Assembly: GCA_029862005.1 (NCBI GenBank)
Contig: JAOTYD010000011.1
Span: 1 to 64,000, forward strand
DNA length: 64,000 nucleotides
Direction of reading: 5' to 3'
Source: Gammaproteobacteria bacterium
GTDB lineage: Bacteria > Pseudomonadota > Gammaproteobacteria > GCA-001735895
Shown: positions 28,097-49,236 of the stretch, piece by piece
How the letters are laid out: each line of letters begins with the position of its first letter
How positions within the stretch are numbered: the first letter of the stretch is position 1
Translations under genes and position numbers: made by a program
Notes under the pieces: generated by a model
Database searches by the model: none
What the model saw: the letters and a program-made list of their open reading frames with translations, nothing else
What the model was told of the DNA's origin: nothing

Positions 28097-29197
28097 TTGG
28101 TTGATAAAATTCTAAGCATTTCACGCCGCACGCGCAAAACCCCGTTTACCAACCGCGTGGAAGCCGCCGGTGTCAAGGGTTACACCGTGTACAATCACAT
28201 GTTGTTGCCCACTTTTTTCGAATCCATAGAAGCCGATTACTGGAGTCTGTGCGACGATGTTCAGGTCTGGGATGTCTCCTGCGAACGACAGATCGAGATT
28301 TCCGGTCCCGATAGCGAACGTTTAATCCAGCTGATGACACCGCGAGATATTTCCCGCGCTGGCATTGGACAGGGACTTTATGCGCCACTCTGCGACGAAA
28401 ACGGCGGCCTGGTCAACGACCCGGTATTGATTAAATTCGCCAACGATGACTGGTGGGTTTCGATCGCCGATAGCGACGTCAGATTATGGGCCCGTGGGCT
28501 CGCGCTCGGCTACGGTCTCGATGTCACGGTGCGCGAGGCCGCCATCTGGCCACTCGCGGTACAGGGCCCGAAAGCAGAAACCCTGGTGACCCGTATTTTC
28601 GGCGATGAGGTCCCCGGTATCCGTTTTTTTCGTTCGAAAATGCTCCAATTTCGTGGCAAAGCGATGATGGTCATGCGCTCCGGTTTCAGCAAACAGGGTG
28701 GCTTCGAAATCTATCTGAACGATGCTGAGCTGGCCGAGCCGCTGTGGGATGAACTATTCGCACAGGGTCGGGATTTGAATGTCAGGGCGGGTGGCCCCAA
28801 CCTGATCGAACGCGTCGAAAGCGGCCTGTTGTCGTACGGCAACGACATGAACTTTACCCACAATCCGTTTGAATGCGGACTGGACGCCTTCATCGACCTC
28901 GACGCCGATATCGAGTCGTTGAGTCTGCCGGCATTGCGTGAAATCAGGGGCAAACACGTGCACCAGCTGGTCGGGGTAGTCTTCGATGAGCCTGTCAGCT
29001 TTGATGATTTCAGGGTTGAAGTGGACGATCGCACAGTCGGTGATGTACGTTCACAGGTATGGTCGCCGCGTTATCAGAAATTCCTGACGATGATAATGAT
29101 GAAGCGCGATTTTCTAAGCAATAACCGAACCGTCAGCGTGGACGGTAAAACTGGTAATATCGTCGATCTGCCATTCGATTTTGACGCGATTGGATAA
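28097..29197 (+). CDS. dmdA: Dimethylsulfoniopropionate demethylase DmdA
   Basis: DmdA transfers a methyl group from DMSP to tetrahydrofolate, giving methylmercaptopropionate. The 366-residue GcvT-fold protein matches the SAR11/roseobacter DmdA pattern from its N-terminus: RKTPFTNRVEAAGVKGYTVY, NHMLLP, VQVWDVSCERQIEI and LMTPRDIS. Further matches are NDPVLIK, WWVSIADSDVRLWARGLA, SGFSKQGGFEIY, NLIERVESGLLSYGNDM and NPFECGL. These diagnostic residues separate it from GcvT and from dimethylglycine dehydrogenases. The start is TTG, the only upstream start in frame. It heads a tight cluster (gaps of -1 to 14 bases) with a MetY-like gene, a hydrolase, a FadN-like gene and an acyl-CoA ligase. Confidence 0.85.
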   Translation: MVDKILSISRRTRKTPFTNRVEAAGVKGYTVYNHMLLPTFFESIEADYWSLCDDVQVWDVSCERQIEISGPDSERLIQLMTPRDISRAGIGQGLYAPLCDENGGLVNDPVLIKFANDDWWVSIADSDVRLWARGLALGYGLDVTVREAAIWPLAVQGPKAETLVTRIFGDEVPGIRFFRSKMLQFRGKAMMVMRSGFSKQGGFEIYLNDAELAEPLWDELFAQGRDLNVRAGGPNLIERVESGLLSYGNDMNFTHNPFECGLDAFIDLDADIESLSLPALREIRGKHVHQLVGVVFDEPVSFDDFRVEVDDRTVGDVRSQVWSPRYQKFLTMIMMKRDFLSNNRTVSVDGKTGNIVDLPFDFDAIG

Positions 29198-35303: not shown

Positions 35304-36092
35304 ATGAACCAGGATATTTCACCCGTCGAACTGCGCCACCGGATCCGTAGCGGAGAATTTACGTCGAATACGTCAGGTTACTCGCGCGGTTTCGTGCAGG
35401 GCAACCTCTGTATACTGCCAGCTGATTATGCCAGCGAATTTCTGCAATTCTGCCAGTCGAATCCCAAGCCCTGTCCACTGATCGGCATGGCTTCAAGTCC
35501 TGGGGATTACCAGATCCCGCGTCTCGGTGAAGACCTCGATATCCGTACCGATATTCCGAGCTACCGGATCTTCGAAGACGGTCAGCTGGTCAACGAAGTT
35601 CACGACATCAGTGACCTATGGCGTGACGACCTGGTGTCCTTTGTACTGGGGTGCTCGTTTTCCTTCGAGGAAGCCCTGATCGATGATGGCCTCGAGATTC
35701 GCAACGTCACCGAAGGCGTCAATGTGCCCATGTATCGCACCGATATCGACTGCATTCCAGCGGGCCGTTTCGCGAGTAAAATGGTGGTCAGCATGCGCCC
35801 GATGATTCCGTCGGACGCGATACGCGCGATCCAGATCTGCACCCGTTTTCCTGCGGTACATGGTGCACCGGTGCACTTCGGTGATCCTGGCAGAATTGGC
35901 ATCAGGGATATCAACCAGCCCGAATTCGGTGATGCCGTAAACATACACAATGATGAAGTACCTGTATTCTGGGCCTGCGGCGTAACCCCCCAGGTAGCGG
36001 TAGAGCAGGCGCGACCGCCATTCTGTATCACGCATTCGCCTGGCTGTATGCTGGTATCGGACTTACCCAACAGCCATCTTGCCGTTATGTAG
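35304..36092 (+). CDS. D-glutamate cyclase family, N-terminal-type domain (DUF1445, YcsI)
   Basis: The 262-residue protein is a stand-alone DUF1445 member: [55 protein letters not shown] and [14 protein letters not shown]-type segments are present (the last as [15 protein letters not shown]). In animals this domain is the N-terminal half of the D-glutamate cyclase DGLUCY, which forms 5-oxo-D-proline. B. subtilis ycsI sits with the 5-oxoprolinase genes in the same way. Here it is followed 11 bases on by pxpA. It starts 30 bases after the dmdB-like gene and may share the upstream transcript. Confidence 0.85.
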
Positions 36093-36103
36093 GTGGAGTA
36101 AAC

Positions 36104-36835
36104 ATGTTGATGCTCAATTGCGATCTTGGTGAAAGCTACGGCTCATGGAAAATGGGCCGTGACGACGAAGTCATGCCCCATATCGACCAGGCCAATATAG
36201 CCTGTGGTTTCCATGGTGGCGATCCGCTGGTCATGGAGCGGACCCTGGCAATGGCAAAACAGCACGATGTCATGGTGGGCGCCCACCCGGCCTATCCAGA
36301 TCTGGTGGGATTCGGTCGCCGCCCGATGCACTGTTCCGCCGAAGAGATTTCAGCATTCATGCATTACCAGATCGCGGCTCTCGAGGGTATGGCGAAAATC
36401 CAGGGGCTCGATTTAGCCTATGTCAAACCGCATGGCGCACTGTATAACGACATGATGGCGCGGGAGGCCGTGCGCGCTCCGATTCTGAAAGCGATAGCCG
36501 ATTTTCACAAACCCGTACGGTTGATGCTGCAGGCTACTCCCGAAGCCGAACTGCATCGTACCGAGGCTGCAGCGCATGGCATCGATCTCTGGTTTGAAGC
36601 TTTCGCCGATCGCTGTTATGACGACGATGGGAAATTGCTTTCCCGGGCTAAACCGGGGGCGGTACACAGCCGTGACAAAATGCTCTCCCAGGTGGAACAG
36701 ATTTGTAGTGAAGGCACGGTTACCACGGTCAGCGGCAATACCCTTGAGCTAAAACCCGATACTCTCTGCGTGCATGGTGATAACGACGCGGGAGTCGCGG
36801 CGATCAAGGAAATTCGTAAAATCATTCATTCCTGA
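36104..36835 (+). CDS. pxpA: 5-oxoprolinase subunit A (LamB/YcsF)
   Basis: PxpA is the subunit of the prokaryotic ATP-dependent 5-oxoprolinase that resembles carbohydrate deacetylase-fold proteins. The 243-residue protein has LNCDLGESYGSWKMG at the N-terminus, ANIACGFHGGDP, MVGAHPAYPDL, and VKPHGALYNDM. It ends in the LCVHGDN motif. With PxpB and PxpC it hydrolyses 5-oxoproline to glutamate. GGTGGAG precedes its ATG. Confidence 0.93.
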   Translation: MLMLNCDLGESYGSWKMGRDDEVMPHIDQANIACGFHGGDPLVMERTLAMAKQHDVMVGAHPAYPDLVGFGRRPMHCSAEEISAFMHYQIAALEGMAKIQGLDLAYVKPHGALYNDMMAREAVRAPILKAIADFHKPVRLMLQATPEAELHRTEAAAHGIDLWFEAFADRCYDDDGKLLSRAKPGAVHSRDKMLSQVEQICSEGTVTTVSGNTLELKPDTLCVHGDNDAGVAAIKEIRKIIHS

Positions 36836-36843
36836 TCCATCGC

Positions 36844-37521
36844 ATGCGAATCGAAATTGCGGGGCAAAACGCGTTTATCGTCTACTTTGCCGAGCAAACC
36901 AGCGCGGCTGTATCGGCGCAGATCCAGGCTGCTGTTGCGAATATAACTGCCACCATGCGGGACAGCATTGTCGACCTGGTACCATCCTACGCGTCGCTGT
37001 TGGTTATTTATGATCAGGATCGAAGTGATCATTTCGCGGTTAAACTTCAGTTGCGGACGGCTTTGTCGAATCTGGATAGCGTTGATGCATCGACCGGGGA
37101 ACTCGTCACCCTGCCCGTCTATTACAGTGCTGAATCCGGACCCGATCTCGAAACGATAGCGCAGCGTGGCAACCTCGCTATCGATGATGTAATCGAGATC
37201 CATCAGCAGCAGGAATACCGGGTCTACGCGATCGGCTTTGCTCCTGGATTTGCCTACCTGGGCGAGGTCGACGAGCGCATAGCCGCGCCGCGCCTGGCGA
37301 CTCCACGGCAAAAGGTACCGCGTGGTGCGGTCGCGATCGCAGACCGCCAGACCGCGGTCTACCCGGCTGTTTCACCGGGCGGATGGAACCTGATTGGACT
37401 GTGTCCGATGCGCATGTTCGATGCCGGCAAGACACCCAGCATGCCGGTTCAGGTCGGTGACAGAATTCGCTTTACCGCGATCAGTCGTGAAGAATTCATC
37501 GCCCAGGGCGGTAAGCTATGA
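36844..37521 (+). CDS. pxpB: 5-oxoprolinase subunit B (KipI-like)
   Basis: The 225-residue KipI-type subunit has the typical DLVPSYASLLVIYD, IHQQQEYRVYAIGFAPGFAYLG and PGGWNLIGLCP motifs, and TPRQKVPRGAVAIA in between. It combines with PxpC, whose start overlaps its last codon (ATGA-type four-base overlap). The Bacillus sporulation-inhibitor role of KipI does not apply to a gammaproteobacterium. Confidence 0.93.
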   Translation: MRIEIAGQNAFIVYFAEQTSAAVSAQIQAAVANITATMRDSIVDLVPSYASLLVIYDQDRSDHFAVKLQLRTALSNLDSVDASTGELVTLPVYYSAESGPDLETIAQRGNLAIDDVIEIHQQQEYRVYAIGFAPGFAYLGEVDERIAAPRLATPRQKVPRGAVAIADRQTAVYPAVSPGGWNLIGLCPMRMFDAGKTPSMPVQVGDRIRFTAISREEFIAQGGKL

Positions 37522-38453
37522 ATGGTTTTGTTGTCAGGCAGCCGGGCTTACTCAGCCTGCTGCACGACCGCGGCCGATACGGGGCGCACAACCTGGGATT
37601 GACTACCGGCGGGCCTCTCGACAGCCTGGCGTTCGACTGGGCTAACCGCATGCTCGGAAACGATGTCAACGCCACCTGCATCGAAATCAGTTTTGGCGGA
37701 CTCGCGCTCGAAGCGAGCCACGATACCAGCTTCGTTATTACCGGTGCGCAAGCACCCTGCAAGCTGGATGGCGAGCCGATCGAACAATGGTGCACCCATG
37801 ACATCGACAGTGGCAGCAAGCTTGAGATCGGCTTCACCAGCGCTGGTACGCGCTGTTACCTGGCGGTCAGCGGTGGTTTTGATATTACGCCAAGTTTCGG
37901 CAGCACTTCGACCGTGGTACGCGAAAATATCGGTGGCATCAACGGTAATAAATTGCAGGCCGGGGATCAGCTACCCTGCAGCGGCACCCGGCCGGCGAAG
38001 CACTGTTTCCTGGCCGAGGCGGATCGTCCCGTATATGCAGATTTTGCAGAACTACGCGTCGTGCCCGGGTACCAGCAGGCCGCCTTCAGCCCGCTGCAGC
38101 AATGGCGTTTTTTTAATACCGATTATCGGCTGACCGAACGCTGCGACCGCATGGGTTTCCGCCTCGAGGGTGAGACCGTCCATTCGAACATGGTTGGTAT
38201 GTTGTCCGAGGGCATCTGCCATGGCGCAATCCAGATTCCGGCAGACGGTCAACCCATTGTCCTGATGAACGATCGTCAGACGATCGGTGGCTATCCCAAG
38301 ATCGGCGCCGTGATCGCGCATGATACGGCGAGGCTGTCACAATTGACACCCGGATCAAATGTTCACTTCGTAGCGATCAGTCTCGAACAGGCGCACAACA
38401 TCCACTGTCTTGAACAGGCGCGCTACCAACGCGCGTCGTTGCAGCCCTGCTGA
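37518..38453 (+). CDS. pxpC: 5-oxoprolinase subunit C (KipA-like, biotin-dependent carboxyltransferase family)
   Basis: The 311-residue KipA-type subunit has LLSLLHDRGRYGAHNLGLTTGG (in part), AFDWANRMLGN, FVITGAQAPCKLDG, and the C-terminal DRMGFRLEGE and SEGICHGAIQIPADGQPIV motifs. Together with PxpA and PxpB it completes the 5-oxoprolinase. It is intact and overlaps pxpB. Confidence 0.93.
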   Translation: MNGFVVRQPGLLSLLHDRGRYGAHNLGLTTGGPLDSLAFDWANRMLGNDVNATCIEISFGGLALEASHDTSFVITGAQAPCKLDGEPIEQWCTHDIDSGSKLEIGFTSAGTRCYLAVSGGFDITPSFGSTSTVVRENIGGINGNKLQAGDQLPCSGTRPAKHCFLAEADRPVYADFAELRVVPGYQQAAFSPLQQWRFFNTDYRLTERCDRMGFRLEGETVHSNMVGMLSEGICHGAIQIPADGQPIVLMNDRQTIGGYPKIGAVIAHDTARLSQLTPGSNVHFVAISLEQAHNIHCLEQARYQRASLQPC

Positions 38454-38463
38454 GTATGAAGCT

Positions 38464-39309
38464 ATGAATCAGGCTGAAGATCTGGCACTCAGTAGTACCA
38501 TAGAAGATATCCTGGTAGCGCGTAACTTACGCGGCATGAAAACGGTGCAGAATCACCTCGAAGCAGGCTATTGCATGCGGGCGGCGCGGTTATTGCAGCG
38601 GTGCCGGGGTAATATCCTGATCGGAACCGGCTTCCCCGTCGTCAAAACTTTCGAGACCGACGGCCCGGTTGGTGCAATCGCGATGTACGAGGCCTTCGAA
38701 AAACTGGGCGCCACGCCGACCATCGTTTGCGGACGCCCGTTATCGCAGGCTCTCGCAGCAAAGTATCGGGTGCATGAAATCAGGGTTGGCGATCACGATC
38801 AACGCAAGCACGAAGCCCAGGATGCACTAGAAAGATTTCATCCAGACGCAATCGTTTCGATTGAAAGACCCGGCCAGGCTGCCGACGGCGGTTATTACAA
38901 CATGCGCGGCGAAAGCATTAGCGAGCATACCGCCTGTTTCGACACCTTCATGGATCAGAGCGAGTGTCCTACCATTGCGATCGGCGATGGTGGCAATGAA
39001 ATCGGCATGGGCAAGGTCGCCGACGCATTACAGGACTTAAATATAGTGCCCGCGATCACGAGCTGCGATGAACTGATTGTCGCCGACGTTTCCAACTGGG
39101 GCGCCTACGGCATCATTTCGTTCCTGTCGGTCTGGAATAAACGTGATCTGCTCGGCGAAATTGTGCCGATCGATATTCTCAGATACATATCCGAACTTGG
39201 CAGCGTCGACGGCGTCACCCGGGTCAACCGGCTAACCGAAGACGGACTCGAGGTCAGCGAAGGTGAGTCGGTTCTGCTGGAGTTACGACGTGTCTGTGGT
39301 TTTATTTAG
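38464..39309 (+). CDS. D-glutamate cyclase C-terminal-type domain protein (DUF4392)
   Basis: From the ATG at 38464 the protein is 281 residues and consists of the DUF4392 domain: NILIGTGFPVVKTFETDGPVG, SIERPGQAADGGYYNMRG, ECPTIAIGDGGNEIGMGKV and a C-terminal EIVPIDIL-type region. In vertebrate DGLUCY this domain is fused after DUF1445. Here both exist as separate genes on either side of pxpABC. Reading together: D-glutamate to 5-oxo-D-proline, then 5-oxoprolinase to glutamate. A start 54 bases earlier is possible but lies inside pxpC. Confidence 0.83.
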   Translation: MNQAEDLALSSTIEDILVARNLRGMKTVQNHLEAGYCMRAARLLQRCRGNILIGTGFPVVKTFETDGPVGAIAMYEAFEKLGATPTIVCGRPLSQALAAKYRVHEIRVGDHDQRKHEAQDALERFHPDAIVSIERPGQAADGGYYNMRGESISEHTACFDTFMDQSECPTIAIGDGGNEIGMGKVADALQDLNIVPAITSCDELIVADVSNWGAYGIISFLSVWNKRDLLGEIVPIDILRYISELGSVDGVTRVNRLTEDGLEVSEGESVLLELRRVCGFI

Positions 39310-39414
39310 ATTACTGGCGCAATGATTTCCATACTGTGGCTCTATTCCGGGAAGTCAGGTTTCTGCTTAACTTGCGTGCCTTTTTGAGCGGTTACTGAAA
39401 TTCAAGAGATAGCC

Positions 39415-40272
39415 ATGACAATTGCATATTTAAACGGCGAATACATGCCACTCGAGGAGGCCCGCATTTCCCCGATGGATCGGGGTTTTTTGTTTGGTGA
39501 CGGCATTTACGAAGTAATCCCCTCATATGGCGGCAAGATGGTCGGATATGGCCCGCATATCGAACGCATGCTGGACGGCCTCGATGCAATCGAAATCAAG
39601 CTCGGCTGGAGTAAAGAACAATGGCGCAAACTGTGCACCTCGCTACTGGAAAAGAATGGTAACGGCAATCTTGGAATATATCTCCACGTAACCCGTGGCG
39701 CCGACACTAAACGCCATCACGCGTACCCTGAGGATATCGAACCCACAGTGTTCGGCTATGCATTTGAAATCCCAGCACCCCCGATTCCGGACCGCGATCA
39801 GATCCACCCCTACACTTGTGCGACCGGTCACGATATGCGTTGGGACCGTTGTAACATCAAATCGATTTCACTACTCGGCAATGTTATGCATTTTCAACAG
39901 GGCTACAGCCAGGGAGACGCCGAAATTTTACTCTACAACGAAAATAATGAGCTGACCGAATGTGGCGCCTGTAACGCCTATATCGTCAAGGATGGCGTTG
40001 TGGCCACCCCACCACTCGATAACCAGATACTGCCGGGAATAACCCGCCAGCTGTTACTCGGGGTGCTTCGCGCCGAAGGCAGTATCCCGGTCGAAGAACG
40101 GATCATCACGATGGATGAAGTTTGGGACGCCGACGAAGTCTGGATTTCCAGTTCGAGCAAGGAAGTCGTCCCGGTGGTCAAGCTCGACGGAAAACCGGTA
40201 GGTGATGGCAAGCCCGGTCCGGTCTGGGAAAAAGCAGCAAAATTGTACTCGGCGGGTAAATACGACTTTTAA
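39415..40272 (+). CDS. dat: D-amino-acid transaminase (D-alanine aminotransferase type)
   Basis: This fold-type IV PLP aminotransferase has 285 residues. The catalytic Lys is in the DRCNIKSISLLGNV segment, with MDRGFLFGDGIYEV at the N-terminus. The YLHVTRGADTKRHH and ITRQLLL motifs favour the D-alanine transaminase group over branched-chain aminotransferases. It interconverts D-amino acids with 2-oxoacids and typically makes or uses D-glutamate. Placement after the D-glutamate cyclase/5-oxoprolinase genes fits D-amino-acid turnover. A 105-base gap separates them, so it may have its own promoter. Confidence 0.85.
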   Translation: MTIAYLNGEYMPLEEARISPMDRGFLFGDGIYEVIPSYGGKMVGYGPHIERMLDGLDAIEIKLGWSKEQWRKLCTSLLEKNGNGNLGIYLHVTRGADTKRHHAYPEDIEPTVFGYAFEIPAPPIPDRDQIHPYTCATGHDMRWDRCNIKSISLLGNVMHFQQGYSQGDAEILLYNENNELTECGACNAYIVKDGVVATPPLDNQILPGITRQLLLGVLRAEGSIPVEERIITMDEVWDADEVWISSSSKEVVPVVKLDGKPVGDGKPGPVWEKAAKLYSAGKYDF

Positions 40273-40984: not shown

Positions 40985-41866
40985 TCATTCAACCAGGCTG
41001 AGTAGCCATTCCTTGAACGCGCGCACCGCCGGATTTTTTAAATGCGACTCCGGGCAGACAACGTAGTAGCAGAACTCGTTTTCCAGGATCACGTCAAATG
41101 GCTTGACCAGTTTACCCGACTCGAGATAATCCTCGACGAATGTGCTCGAACCCAGGGCAATTCCCTGTCCTTCTATCGCAGCCTGAATCAAGACGTTGGT
41201 ATCGTCGATGATGGTCCCCTTTTCCGCGTTTATATCGTCTAAGCCGGCGAGTTCGAGCCACTCCTGCCAGCAGTCGTAACTGGCATCATGCAGCAGCGTG
41301 TAGTAGCGCAGATTATCGATATCAGTCAAAGGCTTGTCGTTGTGCAGGTATGCAGGCGAGCAAACCGGGAAAAAATCCAGTTCCAGCAATTTATCGGCAA
41401 CCACACCTGGCCAACCGCCTTTACCGTAGGTGACCGCAATATCAATTTCCTCACGCCGAAAGTCGACGGCGGCATTGGCATGATAAAGACAAAGATCGAT
41501 TTCCGGGTATTGCAACCAGAAATACTTGAGCCGTGGTGACAGCCATTTTGCCGCAAAGGACGGCGCCAGGCGCACGCTGAGCAGGTTCGAGTACTGTTCC
41601 CTGGTGAGGCCGCTGATGGCCTGGGACACCCGGTCGAAGGCCTCGATGACTTCCGGCAGCAGTACCTTGCCCTGCTCGGTCAACGCCAGGCGTCGTGGAT
41701 AACGGTCGAACAGCGAAAAACCCAGGTACTCCTCGATTACCTTGACCTGGTGACTGATGGCCGCCTGCGTGACATTGAGCTCTTTGGCCGCCCCGGTAAA
41801 GCTCAGCAAACGACCCGCGGCTTCGAAACATTTGAGACTGTTAAGTGGTGGTAAGCGTCTCGCCAT
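40985..41866 (-). CDS. LysR-family regulator, GcvA-like
   Basis: The 293-residue protein begins with the GcvA-type helix-turn-helix (RRLPPLNSLKCFEAAGR, TGAAKELNVTQAAISHQVKV). A periplasmic-binding-protein-type effector domain follows. It is divergent from the mttB-like gene, the usual layout for LysR activators and their targets. GcvA relatives often control glycine, betaine or one-carbon genes. The effector is unknown. Confidence 0.88.
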   Translation of the reverse strand: MARRLPPLNSLKCFEAAGRLLSFTGAAKELNVTQAAISHQVKVIEEYLGFSLFDRYPRRLALTEQGKVLLPEVIEAFDRVSQAISGLTREQYSNLLSVRLAPSFAAKWLSPRLKYFWLQYPEIDLCLYHANAAVDFRREEIDIAVTYGKGGWPGVVADKLLELDFFPVCSPAYLHNDKPLTDIDNLRYYTLLHDASYDCWQEWLELAGLDDINAEKGTIIDDTNVLIQAAIEGQGIALGSSTFVEDYLESGKLVKPFDVILENEFCYYVVCPESHLKNPAVRAFKEWLLSLVE

Positions 41867-41881
41867 AATTTCAATCTAAAC

Positions 41882-41896
41882 ATTACTAAAACTAAT
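41882..41896. promoter_or_regulatory. Possible LysR (GcvA-type) site upstream of the mttB-like gene
   Basis: ATTACTAAAACTAAT lies 15 bases upstream of the LysR start in the 133-base divergent gap. Its ends (ATTA and TAAT) fit a T-N11-A LysR box. The CTAAT within it equals the short motif known from GcvA sites. An AT-rich stretch (TATAAATAATAAT) follows. Confidence 0.35.
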
Positions 41897-41999
41897 CCAT
41901 ACTATAAATAATAATAGCTTGAATCCAGCAGTATCTGATTCGAAAATGGCCCGTTGCTAAATCAGTCCCTGATAACTTTGGCCATTGAGGACAATCACC

Positions 42000-43547
42000 A
42001 TGGCAAGACGATCCAATGCCCGCCAGGCAAAAATTGCATTGCGCAAGGCTGCACTTGCCGAGGACCTCAAACCGGTCCATCCCGGGGAATCGGGTGGTCA
42101 ATACAAGCCGCTCTCGGATACCGATATTGACCAGATCCATGCCACCATCTTTCGCATCCTCGAAGAAGTCGGCTTTGCTGACGCCAATGAACACTGTATC
42201 GAAACCTGCAAATCTGTTGGTGCAACCTACGGCGAAGACCAACGCCTGCGTTTTCCACGTGCTGTCGTTGATGATGCACTCAACAAATGCCAACGCGATC
42301 TGACGCTCCACGGGCAGGACCCGAAGCATGACCTGCAGCTGAGTGGCTCCAAGGTGCATTTTTCCACCGCCGGTGCGGCGGTCATGATAGCCGATCCCAT
42401 CAATAACGAGTATCGCGAGTCAACCGCCCAGGATTTGTATGACATGGCCCGTATTGCAGACAAATGCGAGCATATCCACATGTTTCAGCGTACCTGCGTG
42501 CTGCGCGACATCACCGACAACCACGACATGGATATCAACACCGCCTACAACGCGGTCATGGGAACCACCAAGCATATCGGCTCAAGCTGGACCGAAGCAC
42601 ACCATCTCGAAGACAGCTTGAAGATGCTGCACCTGGTTGCCGGTAGTGAAGAAAAATGGCGCGAACGCCCCTTCATGAGCATTTCCTGCTGCCACGTCGT
42701 GCCTCCGATGAAGTTCACCAACGAGGCGTTGAGCTGTATCAAGGTTGCGGTCGAGGAAGGCATGCCGGTATTGCTACTGTCTGCCGGTCAATCCGGCGCA
42801 ACCGCTCCAGCCTGCCTCGCCGGCGCAGTTGCCCAGGCCTGGGCCGAATGTCTCGGCGGGCTGGTTTTCGTCAACGCCATCAAACCTGGCGCACCGGCCA
42901 TCATCGGCACCTGGCCTTTCGTATCGGATCTGCGTACCGGTGCGATGAGCGGTGGTTCGCCCGAACAGGCGATCCTTTCATCGGCCTGCGCGCAAATGGG
43001 TAATTATTTCAATCTACCAACCGGTACTGCCTGCGGCATGACTGACTCCAAGTTACCGGATTTCCAGGGAGGCGCGGAAAGAGCCTATACCCTCGCCTGT
43101 GCCGCGACTTCGGGCGCCAATATTATTTATGAATCGGCCGGCATGTACGCGAGCCTGCTCGCTGCCTGCCCCGAGTCAATGATAATCGACAACGATATAC
43201 TCGGTGCCGCGTTGCGGATTACGCGCGGTATCGAGGTGAACGAGCAGACTTTAAGTTTTGAAGACCTCAAAGATGTTTGTCTCGGCAACAAGGGACACTA
43301 TCTCGGTTCGGGCCAAACCCTGGAGGTTATGCAAACCGAGTATATTTATCCGGAACTCGGTGACCGCCTGAGTCCCAACGAATGGGTTGAACAGGGGAAG
43401 CCCGTGCTGCTCGACAAGGCGATCGCACGTAAAAATGAAATCCTCGATAACTATTTCCCTTCCCATGTCAGCGACGAAGTCGATCAGCAGATTCGAGCGC
43501 AGTTTAATATTTTCCTGTCGCGGGAAGTCTTTGGCCGCAGTGCCTGA
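42000..43547 (+). CDS. Trimethylamine methyltransferase (MttB) superfamily protein, non-pyrrolysine
   Basis: From the ATG at 42000, which has GAGG upstream, the protein is 515 residues. It shows the MttB/COG5598 pattern: ILEEVGFADANEHCIETCKSVGA (in pieces), FSTAGAAVMIAD, MSISCCHVVPPMKF, and SSACAQMGNYFNLPTGTACGM. No in-frame amber codon is present, so it lacks pyrrolysine and is not a true trimethylamine enzyme. Related proteins demethylate glycine betaine or other quaternary amines with a corrinoid partner, and none is encoded here. It is followed by an FAD/GcvT protein 32 bases on. The substrate is unknown. Confidence 0.85.
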   Translation: MARRSNARQAKIALRKAALAEDLKPVHPGESGGQYKPLSDTDIDQIHATIFRILEEVGFADANEHCIETCKSVGATYGEDQRLRFPRAVVDDALNKCQRDLTLHGQDPKHDLQLSGSKVHFSTAGAAVMIADPINNEYRESTAQDLYDMARIADKCEHIHMFQRTCVLRDITDNHDMDINTAYNAVMGTTKHIGSSWTEAHHLEDSLKMLHLVAGSEEKWRERPFMSISCCHVVPPMKFTNEALSCIKVAVEEGMPVLLLSAGQSGATAPACLAGAVAQAWAECLGGLVFVNAIKPGAPAIIGTWPFVSDLRTGAMSGGSPEQAILSSACAQMGNYFNLPTGTACGMTDSKLPDFQGGAERAYTLACAATSGANIIYESAGMYASLLAACPESMIIDNDILGAALRITRGIEVNEQTLSFEDLKDVCLGNKGHYLGSGQTLEVMQTEYIYPELGDRLSPNEWVEQGKPVLLDKAIARKNEILDNYFPSHVSDEVDQQIRAQFNIFLSREVFGRSA

Positions 43548-43579
43548 GTTTTTTTGATCTAATACCAAGGATTTAGCAG

Positions 43580-45994
43580 ATGAAAGAACATGCCAGAGTC
43601 GTCATTATCGGAGGTGGTTCACTCGGAGTGAACCTGCTATACCATCTGACCCGTGAGGGCTGGACCGACGTGGTGCTGGTCGAGAAAGGCGAGTTGACCA
43701 GTGGCTCGACCTGGCACGCGGCCGGGCTCTGCTCAAACTTCATTGGCAATCACACGGTTGCCCAGATTCATAACTACACGATCAAGCTCTACAACGAAAT
43801 CCTGCCCGAGGAAACCGGTGAGAAATCCAGCTTTCACCAAACCGGAAGTATCCGCCAGGGATTTACCCGGGTCGAGGAAGAATGGTTTAAAAATCTTGAA
43901 AGCCGCGCCAAAAACATCGGCTTTGAATTCAACATCGTAACCAAAGAAGAAGCCCGGAAGCTTAATCCTTTCATGAACTTCGACAAGGCCCGGGTCATCG
44001 CCAGTACCCCGAATGATGGTCACGTGGATCCCACTTCGGTGGTCATGCCGTTGTCCAAACTGGCGCGCGACAAGGGTGCCGAGATCTATCGGTTTACCCG
44101 CGTTACCGAGATCAACGAGCTGCGTTCCGGTGAATGGGAGGTTGTTACCGACAAGGGCAAAATCGTGGCAGAGCACGTGGTCAATGCGGCCGGCTGTTTC
44201 GCTCGTGAAATCGGTGCGATGGTGGGTATCAACGTGCCGTTGATCAATCTCGAACATCAGTACCTGGTTACCGAAAAACACCCCGATATCGAGGCACTGG
44301 GCTGGGAATTGCCAGTGTGTCGTGATTCCTATAGCTCCGCCTACATCCGCCAGGAGGGGCTCGGCTTCCTGGTCGGACCTTACGAGATGTGGGGCTCGCG
44401 ACCGTGGGCGCTCGACGGCATGGACTGGTCTTTCGATCGCGAATTGTTCGAGCCGAACCTGGATGTATTAATGCCATTCCTTGAGCGTTGTTTTGAATTG
44501 ACTCCTAAATTCGAGGAAGTCGGGGTTAAATCGGTCGTTAATGGGCCGATCACTCACACCCCGGACGATAATATTCTGGCGGGACCCGTCGCCGGTCTGC
44601 GCAACTTCTGGAATCTTTGCGGCGCCAGCATCGGCATCGCCCAGGGCGGAATCGGCAAGTACATGGCGCAGTGGTTGAAGTATGGTCAGACCGAAATCAA
44701 CATGGCATCACTCGATACACGTCGCTTCGGCGACTGGGCCGACAGAAAATACTGCACCATCAAGGCGATCGAGTCATACGAGGCCATGTATGCCGTTGGT
44801 GCACCCAACGACAATCGACCCCACGGTCGGCCGATGCGGACCAGCCCACTTTATGCGCGCCTGCTCGAACACGGCGCGGTGCATGGGGCGGCACAGGGAT
44901 ACGAGAAGGCATTGTGGTTTCAGACAGACGCAGTGCGACGCGAATCGCTGAGCTGGTCGCACAGCGAGGCACACGCGGTCGTGGCCGAGGAATGCAGGGC
45001 AGTTCAGGAATCAGCGGGTATCATCGACATTTCGGGTTCAGCCAAGTACGAAATCACGGGATCGGATGCCGCGGCGTTCCTGGATCGACTCTCGTGCAAT
45101 AAACTGCCGCGAGTCGGGCGTATTGGATTAAGCCTGTTTCATTCACCCAACGGCGGCATTATGTGCGAAATGTCGATTACTCGCCTCGACGAAAATCATT
45201 TTTACCTGGTGTCGGCGATCGGTTCCGAAAACAAGGACCTGCACTGGATGCAATCCAACATGGCTGATTTCGATGTCAACATCGCCAACGTCAGCGAGGC
45301 AATCTCGTCAATGCTGATCACCGGACCCAACTCGCGCGAAATCCTGCAACAGATGACCGAGGAAGATTTGTCGAATGCTGCCTTCCCGTGGCTGTGTGCA
45401 CGCAATATCCAGATCGACAGCGCCATGGTACGCATGCTGAGGGTCTCTTACGCGGGTGAACTGGGATACGAGTTGCACATGCCCTCTTACCAGTTACTGT
45501 CGATTTACGATTCGATGTGGCGCAAGGCGGAACCAATTGGTATTCGGAACTTTGGCGGTTACGCCTTCAACTCGATGCGCATGGAGAAAATGTATCGCGC
45601 TTATGGTAACGAATTTACCGAGGAGATCAGCGGCTTCGAGGCTGGTATGGACCGCTTCATCGACACCAGTCGTGATTTTATCGGCTGTGAAAATCTGAAA
45701 CAGCGACAGCAGGATGGTTACGCGATTGAACTGGCATACCTCGTCTTCGATGACCAGGTTCCCTGCGAGTGTTATGGTAATGAGGCGGTTTATCACAACG
45801 GGGTACTGATTGGGCTGACCACCGGGGGCGCCTATGGCCATCGTGTCGGTAAAAGTCTCGCCTTTGCATACCTGAAACCCGAACTGATCAGCGCCGGGCT
45901 CGAGGTGACGGTTGACACGTCGATCGGAAGTCGCAGCGCTCATATCGCCATGGATGCGGCTTACGACCCGGCTAATGAATTGCTGCGGGCCTAG
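43580..45994 (+). CDS. FAD-dependent oxidoreductase fused to GcvT domain (dimethylglycine/sarcosine dehydrogenase-like)
   Basis: The 804-residue protein has an N-terminal FAD domain (IIGGGSLGVNLLYHLTREG, then GSTWHAAGL, whose His is the covalent-flavin residue in dimethylglycine dehydrogenase). A C-terminal GcvT domain starts about residue 420 (DISGSAKYEITG, LITGPNSREIL, SYAGELGYELH, GYAFNSMRMEK). It would oxidise an N-methyl group and pass the carbon to tetrahydrofolate. With the MttB-like protein upstream it forms a two-step demethylation unit. The electron acceptor (ETF) is not in the window. Confidence 0.9.
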   Translation: MKEHARVVIIGGGSLGVNLLYHLTREGWTDVVLVEKGELTSGSTWHAAGLCSNFIGNHTVAQIHNYTIKLYNEILPEETGEKSSFHQTGSIRQGFTRVEEEWFKNLESRAKNIGFEFNIVTKEEARKLNPFMNFDKARVIASTPNDGHVDPTSVVMPLSKLARDKGAEIYRFTRVTEINELRSGEWEVVTDKGKIVAEHVVNAAGCFAREIGAMVGINVPLINLEHQYLVTEKHPDIEALGWELPVCRDSYSSAYIRQEGLGFLVGPYEMWGSRPWALDGMDWSFDRELFEPNLDVLMPFLERCFELTPKFEEVGVKSVVNGPITHTPDDNILAGPVAGLRNFWNLCGASIGIAQGGIGKYMAQWLKYGQTEINMASLDTRRFGDWADRKYCTIKAIESYEAMYAVGAPNDNRPHGRPMRTSPLYARLLEHGAVHGAAQGYEKALWFQTDAVRRESLSWSHSEAHAVVAEECRAVQESAGIIDISGSAKYEITGSDAAAFLDRLSCNKLPRVGRIGLSLFHSPNGGIMCEMSITRLDENHFYLVSAIGSENKDLHWMQSNMADFDVNIANVSEAISSMLITGPNSREILQQMTEEDLSNAAFPWLCARNIQIDSAMVRMLRVSYAGELGYELHMPSYQLLSIYDSMWRKAEPIGIRNFGGYAFNSMRMEKMYRAYGNEFTEEISGFEAGMDRFIDTSRDFIGCENLKQRQQDGYAIELAYLVFDDQVPCECYGNEAVYHNGVLIGLTTGGAYGHRVGKSLAFAYLKPELISAGLEVTVDTSIGSRSAHIAMDAAYDPANELLRA

Positions 45995-46046
45995 TCTCTG
46001 CGATAAGATGGCTGGCCGGTAAAACCTGTTGAAACGGGAGATTGCG

Positions 46047-46634
46047 ATGAAAACTGTTAATTTTACCCGCATGGAAGATGGCACCCGCGAAGAGTACCAG
46101 TTCCTGGACCGGATGGAAGACGAGTACAAAGCAGGGCTTCCCGAGCGCATCATGGATAGTTTGCGCAAGCTCGAACACAGTTTCTCGGGTTACAAGATCA
46201 ATCGCCTGCAGCACAGCCTGCAGGGCGCAACCCGGGCATTTCGTGCTAGCGAGTCGGACGAAATGATTATCGCGGTGTTGCTGCATGACATTGGTGACGA
46301 TCTCGCCCCCTACTCACACAGCGAAATGGCCGCGGCGATACTGCGCCCGTTCGTATCCGAGAAAATCTACTGGATTGTCAAGCATCACGGTGTTTTTCAA
46401 ATGTATTATTACGCACATCACTGCGGTGGCGAACGCAATGCCCGTGAAATGTTCAAGGACAATCCCTGGTACCAGGCCGCGATCGATTTTTGTCATAACT
46501 ACGACCAGAACTGCTTTGACCCAGACTATGACACGGAGCCTCTCGAATTCTTCGAGCCCATCCTGCGCCGGGTTCTGTCAAAACCCAGTCTAGAAGATCC
46601 TGAACAGGTTGCCCGGTACGGTAGGGCCAGCTAG
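46047..46634 (+). CDS. HD-domain protein, possibly a diiron oxygenase or hydrolase
   Basis: From the ATG at 46047 (GGGAG six bases before) the protein is 195 residues. HD-type metal residues are His56 (QHSLQ), His80-Asp81 (LLHDIGDD), His91, His113/114 (HHG) and possibly His124/125 and Asp153. The His56 to His80-Asp81 spacing and the QHSLQ and LLHDIG wording resemble PhnZ-like HD oxygenases, although the extra His after HDLG in PhnZ is Asp here. It follows the FAD/GcvT gene and probably belongs to the same unit. A phosphohydrolase role is the plain alternative. Confidence 0.75.
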   Translation: MKTVNFTRMEDGTREEYQFLDRMEDEYKAGLPERIMDSLRKLEHSFSGYKINRLQHSLQGATRAFRASESDEMIIAVLLHDIGDDLAPYSHSEMAAAILRPFVSEKIYWIVKHHGVFQMYYYAHHCGGERNAREMFKDNPWYQAAIDFCHNYDQNCFDPDYDTEPLEFFEPILRRVLSKPSLEDPEQVARYGRAS

Positions 46635-46873: not shown

Positions 46874-48061
46874 ATGGCAATTATGCCCGCAAAACTGAGT
46901 CATTATGGCAATACGACGGCCGCAACGCCCGCAATCGCTTATCCCGTCGAGCTGATGGAAATTGCCAGCCTGGAAAAATCCCGGCTTGCCTTTGACGAGA
47001 TTTCACGCTGGCCGGGTTACCAGGCCACGCCGCTGTATCGACTTGATTCGCTTGCCCGTGAGATCAAGGTCAGCGAAATTTTTTACAAGGATGAAGCACA
47101 ACGTTTCAAGCTGAAAAGTTTCAAGGCATTGGGCGGCGCCTATGCGGTAGCGCGTCAACTGCAAGCCCGAATTTTTGAAGCCACCGGAGAAAACGCAAGC
47201 ATCGAAGATTTATTGAGCAATACCTACGATTCGATTACCCGTGACATCGTGATTAGTTGTGCGACCGATGGTAACCACGGACGCTCGGTTGCCTGGGGAT
47301 GTCAAATGTTCGGCTGTCGCTGTGTCATCTATATTCACCGCGACGTTTCCGAGGGACGCAAACAGGCGATTGAAGATCTTGGTGCCGAAGTTATCCGCAT
47401 CACCGGTAATTATGATGACTCGATCAAACAGGCAGACCGGGAGGCGCGCACACACGGTCGAATCATCGTCTCAGATACCAGCTATCCGGGCTACACGGAT
47501 ATCCCGCGGGATGTAGCCCTTGGATATACCGTTATGCTTGCTGAAGCCGTTGACCAGATGCAGGACATCATTCCGACTCATGTTTTTATCCAGGGCGGCG
47601 TCGGTGGCCTGGCGGCAGCCGAGTGTGCCTATTTCTGGGAACTATGGGGCGAGCGGCGTCCACGATTTATCGTGGTTGAACCGGAACAGGCCAACTGTCT
47701 GCAGCAGTCAGCGCAAGCTGGTCATCCGGTAACCGTTGCAGGAGACCTCGATACCCTGATGGCCGGGCTTGCCTGTGGCGAAGTGTCGTTGCTAGCCTGG
47801 GAGATACTCAGGCCTGGCGCCAACGATTTCATGACCCTGAGTGAAGATGCCATTGTTCCCTGCATGCGCCTGCTGGCGCGGGGCAATCCTGAAATCGAAG
47901 CCGGTGAATCCGCAGTTGCGGGTATCGCGGCACTTATCGCGGCACGCGATGACGAGGCAATGTCAAACACTTTGGGTCTCGATGCATCCAGCCGGATTTT
48001 TATTATCGGTACCGAGGGAGCGACTGACCCGGAACTCTACCAGAAACTGGTGGCAGCCTGA
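46874..48061 (+). CDS. dpaL: Diaminopropionate ammonia-lyase
   Basis: DpaL (YgeX) is a PLP fold-type II lyase that breaks 2,3-diaminopropionate to pyruvate and two ammonia, acting on both D and L forms. The 395-residue protein has the PLP lysine in RFKLKSFKALGGAYA, CATDGNHGRSVAWG, YPGYTDIPRDVALGYTVM and the FIQGGVGGLAAA phosphate loop, close to the E. coli protein. AAAGG stands just before the ATG. The 239 bases before it (46635-46873) hold no gene. The M24 peptidase gene begins two bases after the stop. Confidence 0.9.
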   Translation: MAIMPAKLSHYGNTTAATPAIAYPVELMEIASLEKSRLAFDEISRWPGYQATPLYRLDSLAREIKVSEIFYKDEAQRFKLKSFKALGGAYAVARQLQARIFEATGENASIEDLLSNTYDSITRDIVISCATDGNHGRSVAWGCQMFGCRCVIYIHRDVSEGRKQAIEDLGAEVIRITGNYDDSIKQADREARTHGRIIVSDTSYPGYTDIPRDVALGYTVMLAEAVDQMQDIIPTHVFIQGGVGGLAAAECAYFWELWGERRPRFIVVEPEQANCLQQSAQAGHPVTVAGDLDTLMAGLACGEVSLLAWEILRPGANDFMTLSEDAIVPCMRLLARGNPEIEAGESAVAGIAALIAARDDEAMSNTLGLDASSRIFIIGTEGATDPELYQKLVAA

Positions 48062-48063
48062 TC

Positions 48064-49236
48064 ATGACCGATGCCCCCGAACGCGGATTCGCCATGAGTG
48101 AGTTCGAGGTCAGAACCGAACGTGCGCAACAATTGATGCGTGACGAAAAAATCGATGTCATGTTGCTGACAACCGAGCCCCATGTGCGCTATTTCAGCGG
48201 CTTCCTGACCCAGTTCTGGCAGAGTCCGACCCGCCCCTGGTTTTTACTGTTACCCCTGTCTGGCAAGCCAATTGCCGTCATTCCTTCGATCGGTGTCGCT
48301 GGAATGCAGCAGTGCTGGATCGACGATATTCGCAGCTGGTCTTCGCCACAGCCGCAGGATGATGGTATCTCGTTGCTGCTGGCGGCGATTCGTGAGATAC
48401 CCCGGCGCTTCGGTCGTTTGGCTATGACCCTCGGTACCGAGAGTTACCTGCGTATGCCCGCCCGCGATTATCGCCATCTCGAAACCGAGTTGACAGAATT
48501 CGAACTGGCCGATTGTGCCGACCTGATGCTCAGGCTTTGCAGCGTCAAGTCATCTGCCGAGATAGCCAAGATAAGGTACGTCTGCGAACTCGCCTCGGAC
48601 AGCTTCAATGCACTGCCCGAATTCGCCCGTATGGGTCAGAGCGAACGCGACATACTGCGTGCGATGCGGATCGATTTGCTCTCCCGTGGGGCCGATCATA
48701 CGCCCTACATCGTCTCTGCATCTGGCCAGGGTGGTTATGGCGATATCATTATGGGACCCAGTGACCGCGTACTCGAAGATGGGGACGTGTTAATCATCGA
48801 TACCGGCACTATATACGACGGCTATTACTGCGACTTCGACCGCAACTTCGGTTTCGGCCATGCGTCGGAGCAAAGCCTGCGAGCCTATGAAACCGTTTAC
48901 CGCAGTACCGATGCCGGCCTCGCAACCGCCAGGCCCGGTGCCACGACCACCGACATCTGGCAGGCAATGTGGTCGGTGCTGGAGCGCGGTGGCGCGCAAG
49001 GTAATGATGATATTGGCCGCATGGGCCATGGGCTGGGCGCTCAGTTGACCGAGTGGCCGTCAATCACGGCAACCGACCAGACTCCGCTGGTGCCGGGCAT
49101 GGTGATAACGCTCGAGCCAGGCATGGAATTTGAACCGGGAAAACTGATGGTGCACGAAGAAAATATTTTAATTACTGAATCAGGTGCCGAACTCCTTAGC
49201 AAGCGCGCGGCCGCCGAAATGCCGATCATCGATTAA
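48064..49236 (+). CDS. M24-family metallopeptidase (Xaa-Pro dipeptidase / creatinase / ectoine-hydrolase fold)
   Basis: The 390-residue pita-bread protein has an N-terminal creatinase-like domain and a C-terminal M24 domain with the dimetal ligands: Asp in IIDTGT, Asp in YYCDFDRNF, His in MGHGLG, Glu in LEPGMEF and Glu in MVHEENI. Coupling to diaminopropionate ammonia-lyase suggests it releases diaminopropionate or a similar amino acid from a dipeptide or amide. Ectoine hydrolase DoeA and creatinase share this fold. The start may instead be the ATG at 48094. Confidence 0.85.
   Translation: MTDAPERGFAMSEFEVRTERAQQLMRDEKIDVMLLTTEPHVRYFSGFLTQFWQSPTRPWFLLLPLSGKPIAVIPSIGVAGMQQCWIDDIRSWSSPQPQDDGISLLLAAIREIPRRFGRLAMTLGTESYLRMPARDYRHLETELTEFELADCADLMLRLCSVKSSAEIAKIRYVCELASDSFNALPEFARMGQSERDILRAMRIDLLSRGADHTPYIVSASGQGGYGDIIMGPSDRVLEDGDVLIIDTGTIYDGYYCDFDRNFGFGHASEQSLRAYETVYRSTDAGLATARPGATTTDIWQAMWSVLERGGAQGNDDIGRMGHGLGAQLTEWPSITATDQTPLVPGMVITLEPGMEFEPGKLMVHEENILITESGAELLSKRAAAEMPIID

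Follow-up and report, generated by a model that had tools for sequence, protein, structure and literature searches.

An operon pairing a non-pyrrolysine MttB-family methyltransferase with a dimethylglycine dehydrogenase-like enzyme, and a candidate corrinoid partner encoded elsewhere in the genome

Results

A three-gene operon in a gammaproteobacterial genome encodes an MttB-family methyltransferase, an oxidoreductase with a tetrahydrofolate (THF)-binding domain that is related to dimethylglycine dehydrogenase (DMGDH; we refer to the operon enzyme as FAD-GcvT), and an HD-domain protein. We think it likely that the operon is a two-step module for demethylation of a quaternary amine, using a corrinoid protein of the MtgC type whose gene is on a different contig. 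The methyltransferase belongs to a distinct and widespread MttB clade, newly identified here, that is tied to the DMGDH-like partner, and the module most likely demethylates a betaine-like nutrient in this marine-type bacterium. The assembly comprises 3.99 Mb in 105 contigs and is 97% complete; the module is on contig C11, of which we analysed a stretch of 64,000 nucleotides (the window).

Organization of the operon

Table 1. Features of the operon region in the window (contig C11) and of the corrinoid gene cluster at locus L014 (contig C1).
Feature	Location	Position	Strand	Remarks
GcvA-type LysR regulator	window	40985..41866	(-)	divergent from MttB gene; NCBIfam GcvA PRK11139
Divergent intergenic region, 133 bp	window	41867..41999	.	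presumed LysR-controlled promoter, by position only
Non-pyrrolysine MttB-family methyltransferase, 515 aa	window	42000..43547	(+)	ATG 42000; PF06253; putative first demethylation step
DMGDH-like FAD oxidoreductase with THF-binding GcvT domain, 804 aa	window	43580..45994	(+)	four Pfam domains; putative second demethylation step
HD-domain dimetal protein, PhnZ/TmpB fold, 195 aa	window	46047..46634	(+)	ATG 46047; PF01966; likely co-transcribed
MtgC	L014	6112-6825		scored by model
DUF1638	L014	6862-7476		sequence reading and gene set of PMC12478193
Short MetF-type C-terminal piece	L014	7791-8261		
MetF2	L014	8258-9265		sequence reading and gene set of PMC12478193
Pterin-binding MtgD	L014	9322-10233		sequence reading and gene set of PMC12478193
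RACo/RamA reactivase	L014	10264-12285		scored by model
AraC-type regulator	L014			between RACo and MtgB-like MttB
MtgB-like MttB	L014	13651-15261		scored by model

The MttB and FAD-GcvT genes are separated by 32 bp, and the FAD-GcvT gene and the ATG of the HD gene by 52 bp (Table 1). The divergently transcribed regulator is of the GcvA type, scoring 340 bits against a cut-off of 288 bits (NCBIfam PRK11139), and its linkage to MttB is seen in the same genus, in Cocleimonas, in Oceanospirillaceae/SAR92 and at three alphaproteobacterial loci. All four genes are where the initial annotation had placed them, and matches to PF06253, to the four domains of the DMGDH-like protein, to PF01966 and to PRK11139 bear out the identities that it had given them.

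Across eight lineage groups, 56 of the 81 orthologue loci show linkage of MttB with FAD-GcvT, and the pairing is therefore not due to chance. The FAD-GcvT gene is located 3' of MttB at loci of the same genus, Thioglobus, Cocleimonas, Oceanospirillaceae and SAR92, and almost all close gammaproteobacterial loci on sufficiently long contigs have it immediately after MttB. Loci of SAR92, Oceanospirillaceae, SAR116 and Hyphomicrobiales carry a second FAD-GcvT gene, as does, at least in part, S. meliloti pSymB. Many alphaproteobacterial orthologues have no FAD-GcvT gene nearby, so this neighbour is not obligatory.

A diaminopropionate ammonia-lyase-family gene and an M24 peptidase-like gene are located 3' of the HD gene (46874-49236). 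We do not count these as operon members, as they follow a gap of 239 bp and stand beside MttB only within the same genus group. The window also contains a gene for a DmdA-like DMSP demethylase (28097-29197; 464 bits against an NCBIfam cut-off of 410 bits); the next gene is O-acetylhomoserine sulfhydrylase-like. D-glutamate cyclase-, 5-oxoprolinase (three subunits)- and class IV aminotransferase-like genes (35304-40272) form an apparent D-glutamate/5-oxoproline breakdown cluster that is kept in related loci of the genus.

The FAD-GcvT and HD-domain proteins

The FAD-GcvT protein carries the Pfam domains DAO, FAO_M, GCV_T and GCV_T_C over its 804 aa. Its best solved relative is mitochondrial dimethylglycine dehydrogenase (571 bits, aligned over almost the whole length), with which (5l46, 4pab) it shares the same four domains at full length and the STWHAAG stretch around the covalent-FAD His, so that both the domain architecture and the His of this family are present; it differs in being bacterial and encoded in an operon with MttB. 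Another FAD-GcvT protein of the genome is closer to DMGDH (631 versus 571 bits). We rejected TMAO demethylase (NF053776) as an identity, since only the GcvT part matches (116 versus 1100 bits).

Four other MttB genes of the genome adjoin GcvT-type genes, three of them FAD-GcvT (L015, L019 and L020, on contigs C28, C10 and C27) and one GcvT (L016, on C31). In this genome, the combination of an MttB with a GcvT-type enzyme appears to be a recurring module, and the simplest parse of such pairs would be that MttB acts first and GcvT-coupled oxidation second.

The HD protein matches PF01966 (E 5.5e-6), and its predicted structure (pLDDT 82) is most similar to PhnZ and TmpB (Foldseek E 5e-6 to 6e-5), with myo-inositol oxygenase next. 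It has the fold and the six-ligand dimetal motif of these enzymes, and the ligands (H56, H80, D81, H91, H114 and D153) are invariant in 12 HD homologues. Unlike PhnZ and TmpB it is without the YxxE loop, the site reading F46-S-G-Y49; it has the invariant Arg typical of HD phosphohydrolases, R53, three positions ahead of H56; and it scores far below the family cut-offs (40 bits against 300 for NCBIfam TmpB). The loop and the Arg are criteria for distinguishing HD oxygenases from phosphohydrolases (PMC8177086), and because the loop is absent and the hydrolase-type R53 is present we do not claim PhnZ/TmpB membership.

A three-enzyme route, compatible with the two-step module, would begin with a larger quaternary amine, which the HD protein, acting as an oxygenase of the TmpB/PhnZ type, would convert into the substrate of MttB. 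The fold match and the invariant ligands are consistent with this, as are the neighbours of HD homologues: in Cocleimonas the homologue adjoins a TauD-family gene resembling gamma-butyrobetaine dioxygenase/TmpA, and on a Pseudomonas plasmid one is positioned between a TauD dioxygenase gene and genes for choline uptake and oxidation. We nonetheless regard such an oxygenase as doubtful, given the missing loop, the phosphohydrolase-type Arg and the low TmpB score, and given that no HD gene was found at most alphaproteobacterial MttB loci or at those of Thioglobus and SAR92. Since homologues pair with TauD-family dioxygenases and choline genes, some role in quaternary-amine metabolism is plausible. 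The plasmid homologue (P. aeruginosa pF045_1, L149) is 50% identical, and the choline genes beside it encode a choline binding protein, choline dehydrogenase and aldehyde dehydrogenase.

The MttB-family methyltransferase and its putative substrate

The MttB protein matches PF06253 with residues 4-500 of its 515 aa (E 1.4e-111; 490 of 500 positions), and its nearest relatives in the PDB are MtgB (9yce/2qne, E 1e-62) and MttB (7xcl, E 1e-50). TM scores of 0.75-0.81 are obtained when its AlphaFold model is compared with 2qne and 9yce (MtgB), 7xcl (MttB) and the 7xcn chain from the MttB-MttC complex; the full-length family match and the TIM-barrel fold place it in the MttB superfamily (PF06253/COG5598). 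The corrinoid interface cannot be judged from this model because it is of moderate quality (pLDDT 74, weakest at 409-463), with low confidence at the dimerisation-loop interface. The gene is an open frame without an in-frame TAG (amber) codon, and Met347 occupies the pyrrolysine position (334), in agreement with the earlier designation of this enzyme as non-pyrrolysine; with a score of 349 bits against a cut-off of 525, we rejected identity as a pyrrolysine trimethylamine methyltransferase.

In a quick maximum-likelihood tree, 79 orthologues of this MttB form a single clade (SH-aLRT 99) apart from all MtgB-like rows, and its joins to other groups, including pyrrolysine MttB, are through long branches and are unsure. 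Within its own genome the protein is 40% identical to two paralogues (C27 at 15.6 kb and C12 at 73 kb) and 21-24% identical to the other seven. A sister-clade operon on the R. pomeroyi megaplasmid (L147, 7025-17321) contains genes for a LysR regulator, an MttB (44% identical), a class III aminotransferase, two FAD-GcvT proteins and a TPP enzyme, the last of which is 46% identical to one encoded near the C12 MttB (L022).

Residues N199, R309 and H345 of MtgB have been proposed by docking as glycine betaine ligands (PMC6855144). The corresponding residues are His or Phe, Gly and Glu in 78 orthologues; the seven MtgB-like paralogues have Asn, Arg and, in most cases, His there. As the clade is without the docking-proposed ligands, its substrate is probably not glycine betaine. 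This argues against a second glycine betaine route in which MttB would make dimethylglycine and FAD-GcvT would be an ordinary dimethylglycine dehydrogenase, as do the presence of an MtgB-like enzyme with N, R and H at these positions beside mtgC in the same genome, and of the other FAD-GcvT protein that is nearer to DMGDH. We therefore consider this route unlikely, even though DMGDH is the best solved relative of FAD-GcvT, the regulator is GcvA-like, and the orthologues at SAR116 loci adjoin two FAD-GcvT genes together with gcvT, gcvH and gcvP.

Neighbouring genes offer hints to the substrate that conflict between lineages, and none is decisive. PutA, recognised from sequence and not by a model, is encoded divergently to MttB at six Thioglobus loci (L044, L048, L049, L054, L056 and L058), which suits proline betaine, whose two methyl groups could be removed by one MttB and one FAD-GcvT to give proline. 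MmsA is encoded upstream at eight Thioglobus and three SAR116 loci (two examples score above the MMSDH cut-off), suiting beta-alanine betaine, and the SAR116 loci run on into gcvT, gcvH and gcvP, suiting a glycine product. Searches of the literature for a substrate of close MttB homologues found none. We favour, with low confidence, an amino-acid betaine other than glycine betaine, with proline betaine first and beta-alanine betaine second.

A corrinoid system on another contig

The neighbourhood of the MttB module showed no corrinoid or reactivation gene, in agreement with the initial annotation, which had headlined the module as corrinoid-free. At the level of the genome this headline is not supported, as contig C1 carries MtgC, MtgD, MetF2 and RACo/RamA (Table 1), and the MtgC and reactivase of this cluster rule out genome-level absence of a corrinoid partner; that these are encoded elsewhere in the genome is half of what the annotation had itself named as counterevidence, together with co-regulation or, alternatively, a known substrate of close homologues. 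The genome search that it had proposed yields a single PF02607 match, a stand-alone 237-aa MtgC-like corrinoid protein on C1 with a GDIHDIG motif and with MttC (from the MttB-MttC complex) among its nearest solved relatives, and one RACo_C_ter protein, encoded 5 kb beyond MtgC. The aerobic MtgBCD gene set (stand-alone MtgC, MtgD and RACo/RamA) is thus present (L014, 6112-12285), on a different contig from the MttB module. A profile search finds ten PF06253 (MttB) genes in the genome, and the MtgB-like MttB beside mtgC on C1 keeps the N, R and H ligand positions. Further PF02310 matches on C5 and C7 are in open frames of 507 and 580 aa, which we judged by length and sequence to be other proteins.

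The co-occurrence of the MttB orthologue with a stand-alone corrinoid protein is near-perfect. Within the order, the orthologue (at least 74% identity) is present in 28 of 31 same-genus genomes, two of these being partial matches, and in none of ten genomes of two sister genera. A stand-alone corrinoid protein is encoded in all 20 orthologue-holding genomes of the genus that are at least 90% complete (in one of them it is truncated by the end of a contig), compared with 3 of the 8 genomes of the order at that completeness without the orthologue. Outside the genus the same is true of 46/46 genomes at least 90% complete with a 51-59% identical orthologue (frames of 233-369 aa), a set drawn from even samples of class and phylum. 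In the same phylum sample, such a protein could be present in no more than 71 of the 359 proteobacterial genomes that lack the orthologue (at most 20%), this being an upper bound made up of six genomes with only MtgC-range scores and 65 with at least two matches, counted by eye. The association has a Fisher p of 2e-24, without correction for kinship. For 44 loci from a named collection, a PF02607 match was found in 40 genomes and RACo in 35, the genomes without one or the other including single-cell and fragmentary assemblies for which completeness figures are absent. Most of the small genomes of the Thioglobus group (0.7-1.7 Mb) retain a single stand-alone corrinoid protein along with the orthologue. 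The C1 MtgC and the 46/46 and 20/20 co-occurrence favour a distant corrinoid protein as the partner, which had been raised from the outset as one option, although the co-occurrence is indirect evidence, since these bacteria also use MtgC in methionine synthesis (PMC12478193) and would keep it anyway.

An alternative explanation is that MttB is corrinoid-free and passes the methyl group directly either to THF in the GcvT domain of the adjacent protein or to some other acceptor, with the corrinoid system serving other paralogues only. The linkage in 56/81 loci, the identity of merely 21-24% to the seven MtgB-like paralogues and the loss of R309 and of G372 (a corrin-touching residue of MttB that is Leu in the clade and differs in MtgB as well) are compatible with this, as is G399 (98% complete), the one sampled genome with MetH as its only PF02607 match, which has a 40%-identical MttB of another branch (L142, C27). 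However, none of 66 genomes at least 90% complete holds a close orthologue without MtgC, many alphaproteobacterial orthologues are without the FAD-GcvT neighbour, and both the fold and the positions of Gly110 and Tyr364 of pyrrolysine MttB, kept in 78/78 orthologues, match the corrinoid-using enzyme. Nor is any GcvT domain known to take up a methyl group from a separate protein, and we regard this explanation as very improbable. That the clade as a whole moves methyl groups without any corrinoid protein, to THF directly or via the partner GcvT, is a shade more improbable still; if true, it would be the first corrinoid-independent MttB-family enzyme.

Discussion

In the two-step demethylation that we favour, MttB would transfer the first methyl group of the substrate to the cobalt of the MtgC-type corrinoid protein, which would be common to the ten MttB paralogues and held in the Co(I) state by RACo/RamA; MtgD would pass the methyl from MtgC to THF, and MetF2 would then oxidise it. 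The FAD domain of the DMGDH-like enzyme would oxidise the resulting tertiary amine at the next methyl, and its GcvT domain would catch the released methylene to form 5,10-methylene-THF. The GcvA-type LysR protein may control the operon, and the HD protein would probably contribute a side or upstream step. The initial reading of a non-pyrrolysine MttB and a DMGDH-like enzyme as a module for a methylated amine is supported.

The closest comparison is with the MtgBCD(E) system of R. pomeroyi, in which genetics has shown glycine betaine use to depend on MtgC and MtgD; up to seven pfam06253 genes are present per genome, and other methylated substrates have been suggested (PMC12478193). R. pomeroyi SPO2108 and SPO2134 are induced on glycine betaine. 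The two systems have in common an aerobic setting, a pfam06253 enzyme, stand-alone MtgC, MtgD, MetF2, RamA, DUF1638 and several MttB paralogues (PMC12478193), whereas the MttB described here is of another clade, without the proposed ligands of MtgB, and is linked to a DMGDH-like enzyme rather than to mtgC. In E. limosum, as described in excerpts of two reports, MtpB, MtcB and MtyB use a common MtqC that is encoded apart, so that there, too, substrate-specific non-pyrrolysine MttB enzymes are encoded separately from the common corrinoid protein and its THF methyltransferase; E. limosum is an anaerobic acetogen, and these excerpts do not mention an FAD-GcvT partner (PMC8604678, PMC12155760). The pyrrolysine MttB-MttC system of Methanosarcina barkeri shares the fold and Gly110 and Tyr364 and is on the same side of the tree (through long branches), but Met, Ile or Ala replaces pyrrolysine in the clade (PMC9842639). 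From these comparisons, the module is most likely a further branch of the known layout of many MttB enzymes and one corrinoid protein, as in Ruegeria and Eubacterium, and not an instance of B12-free chemistry.

A remote MtgC resolves what had looked like a paradox, an MttB without a corrinoid protein. The unassigned clade is widespread, with members in Thioglobus/SUP05, SAR92, SAR116, other Alphaproteobacteria and on S. meliloti pSymB; these enzymes probably act on a methylated nitrogen compound, the B12-dependent breakdown of which has so far gone uncounted.
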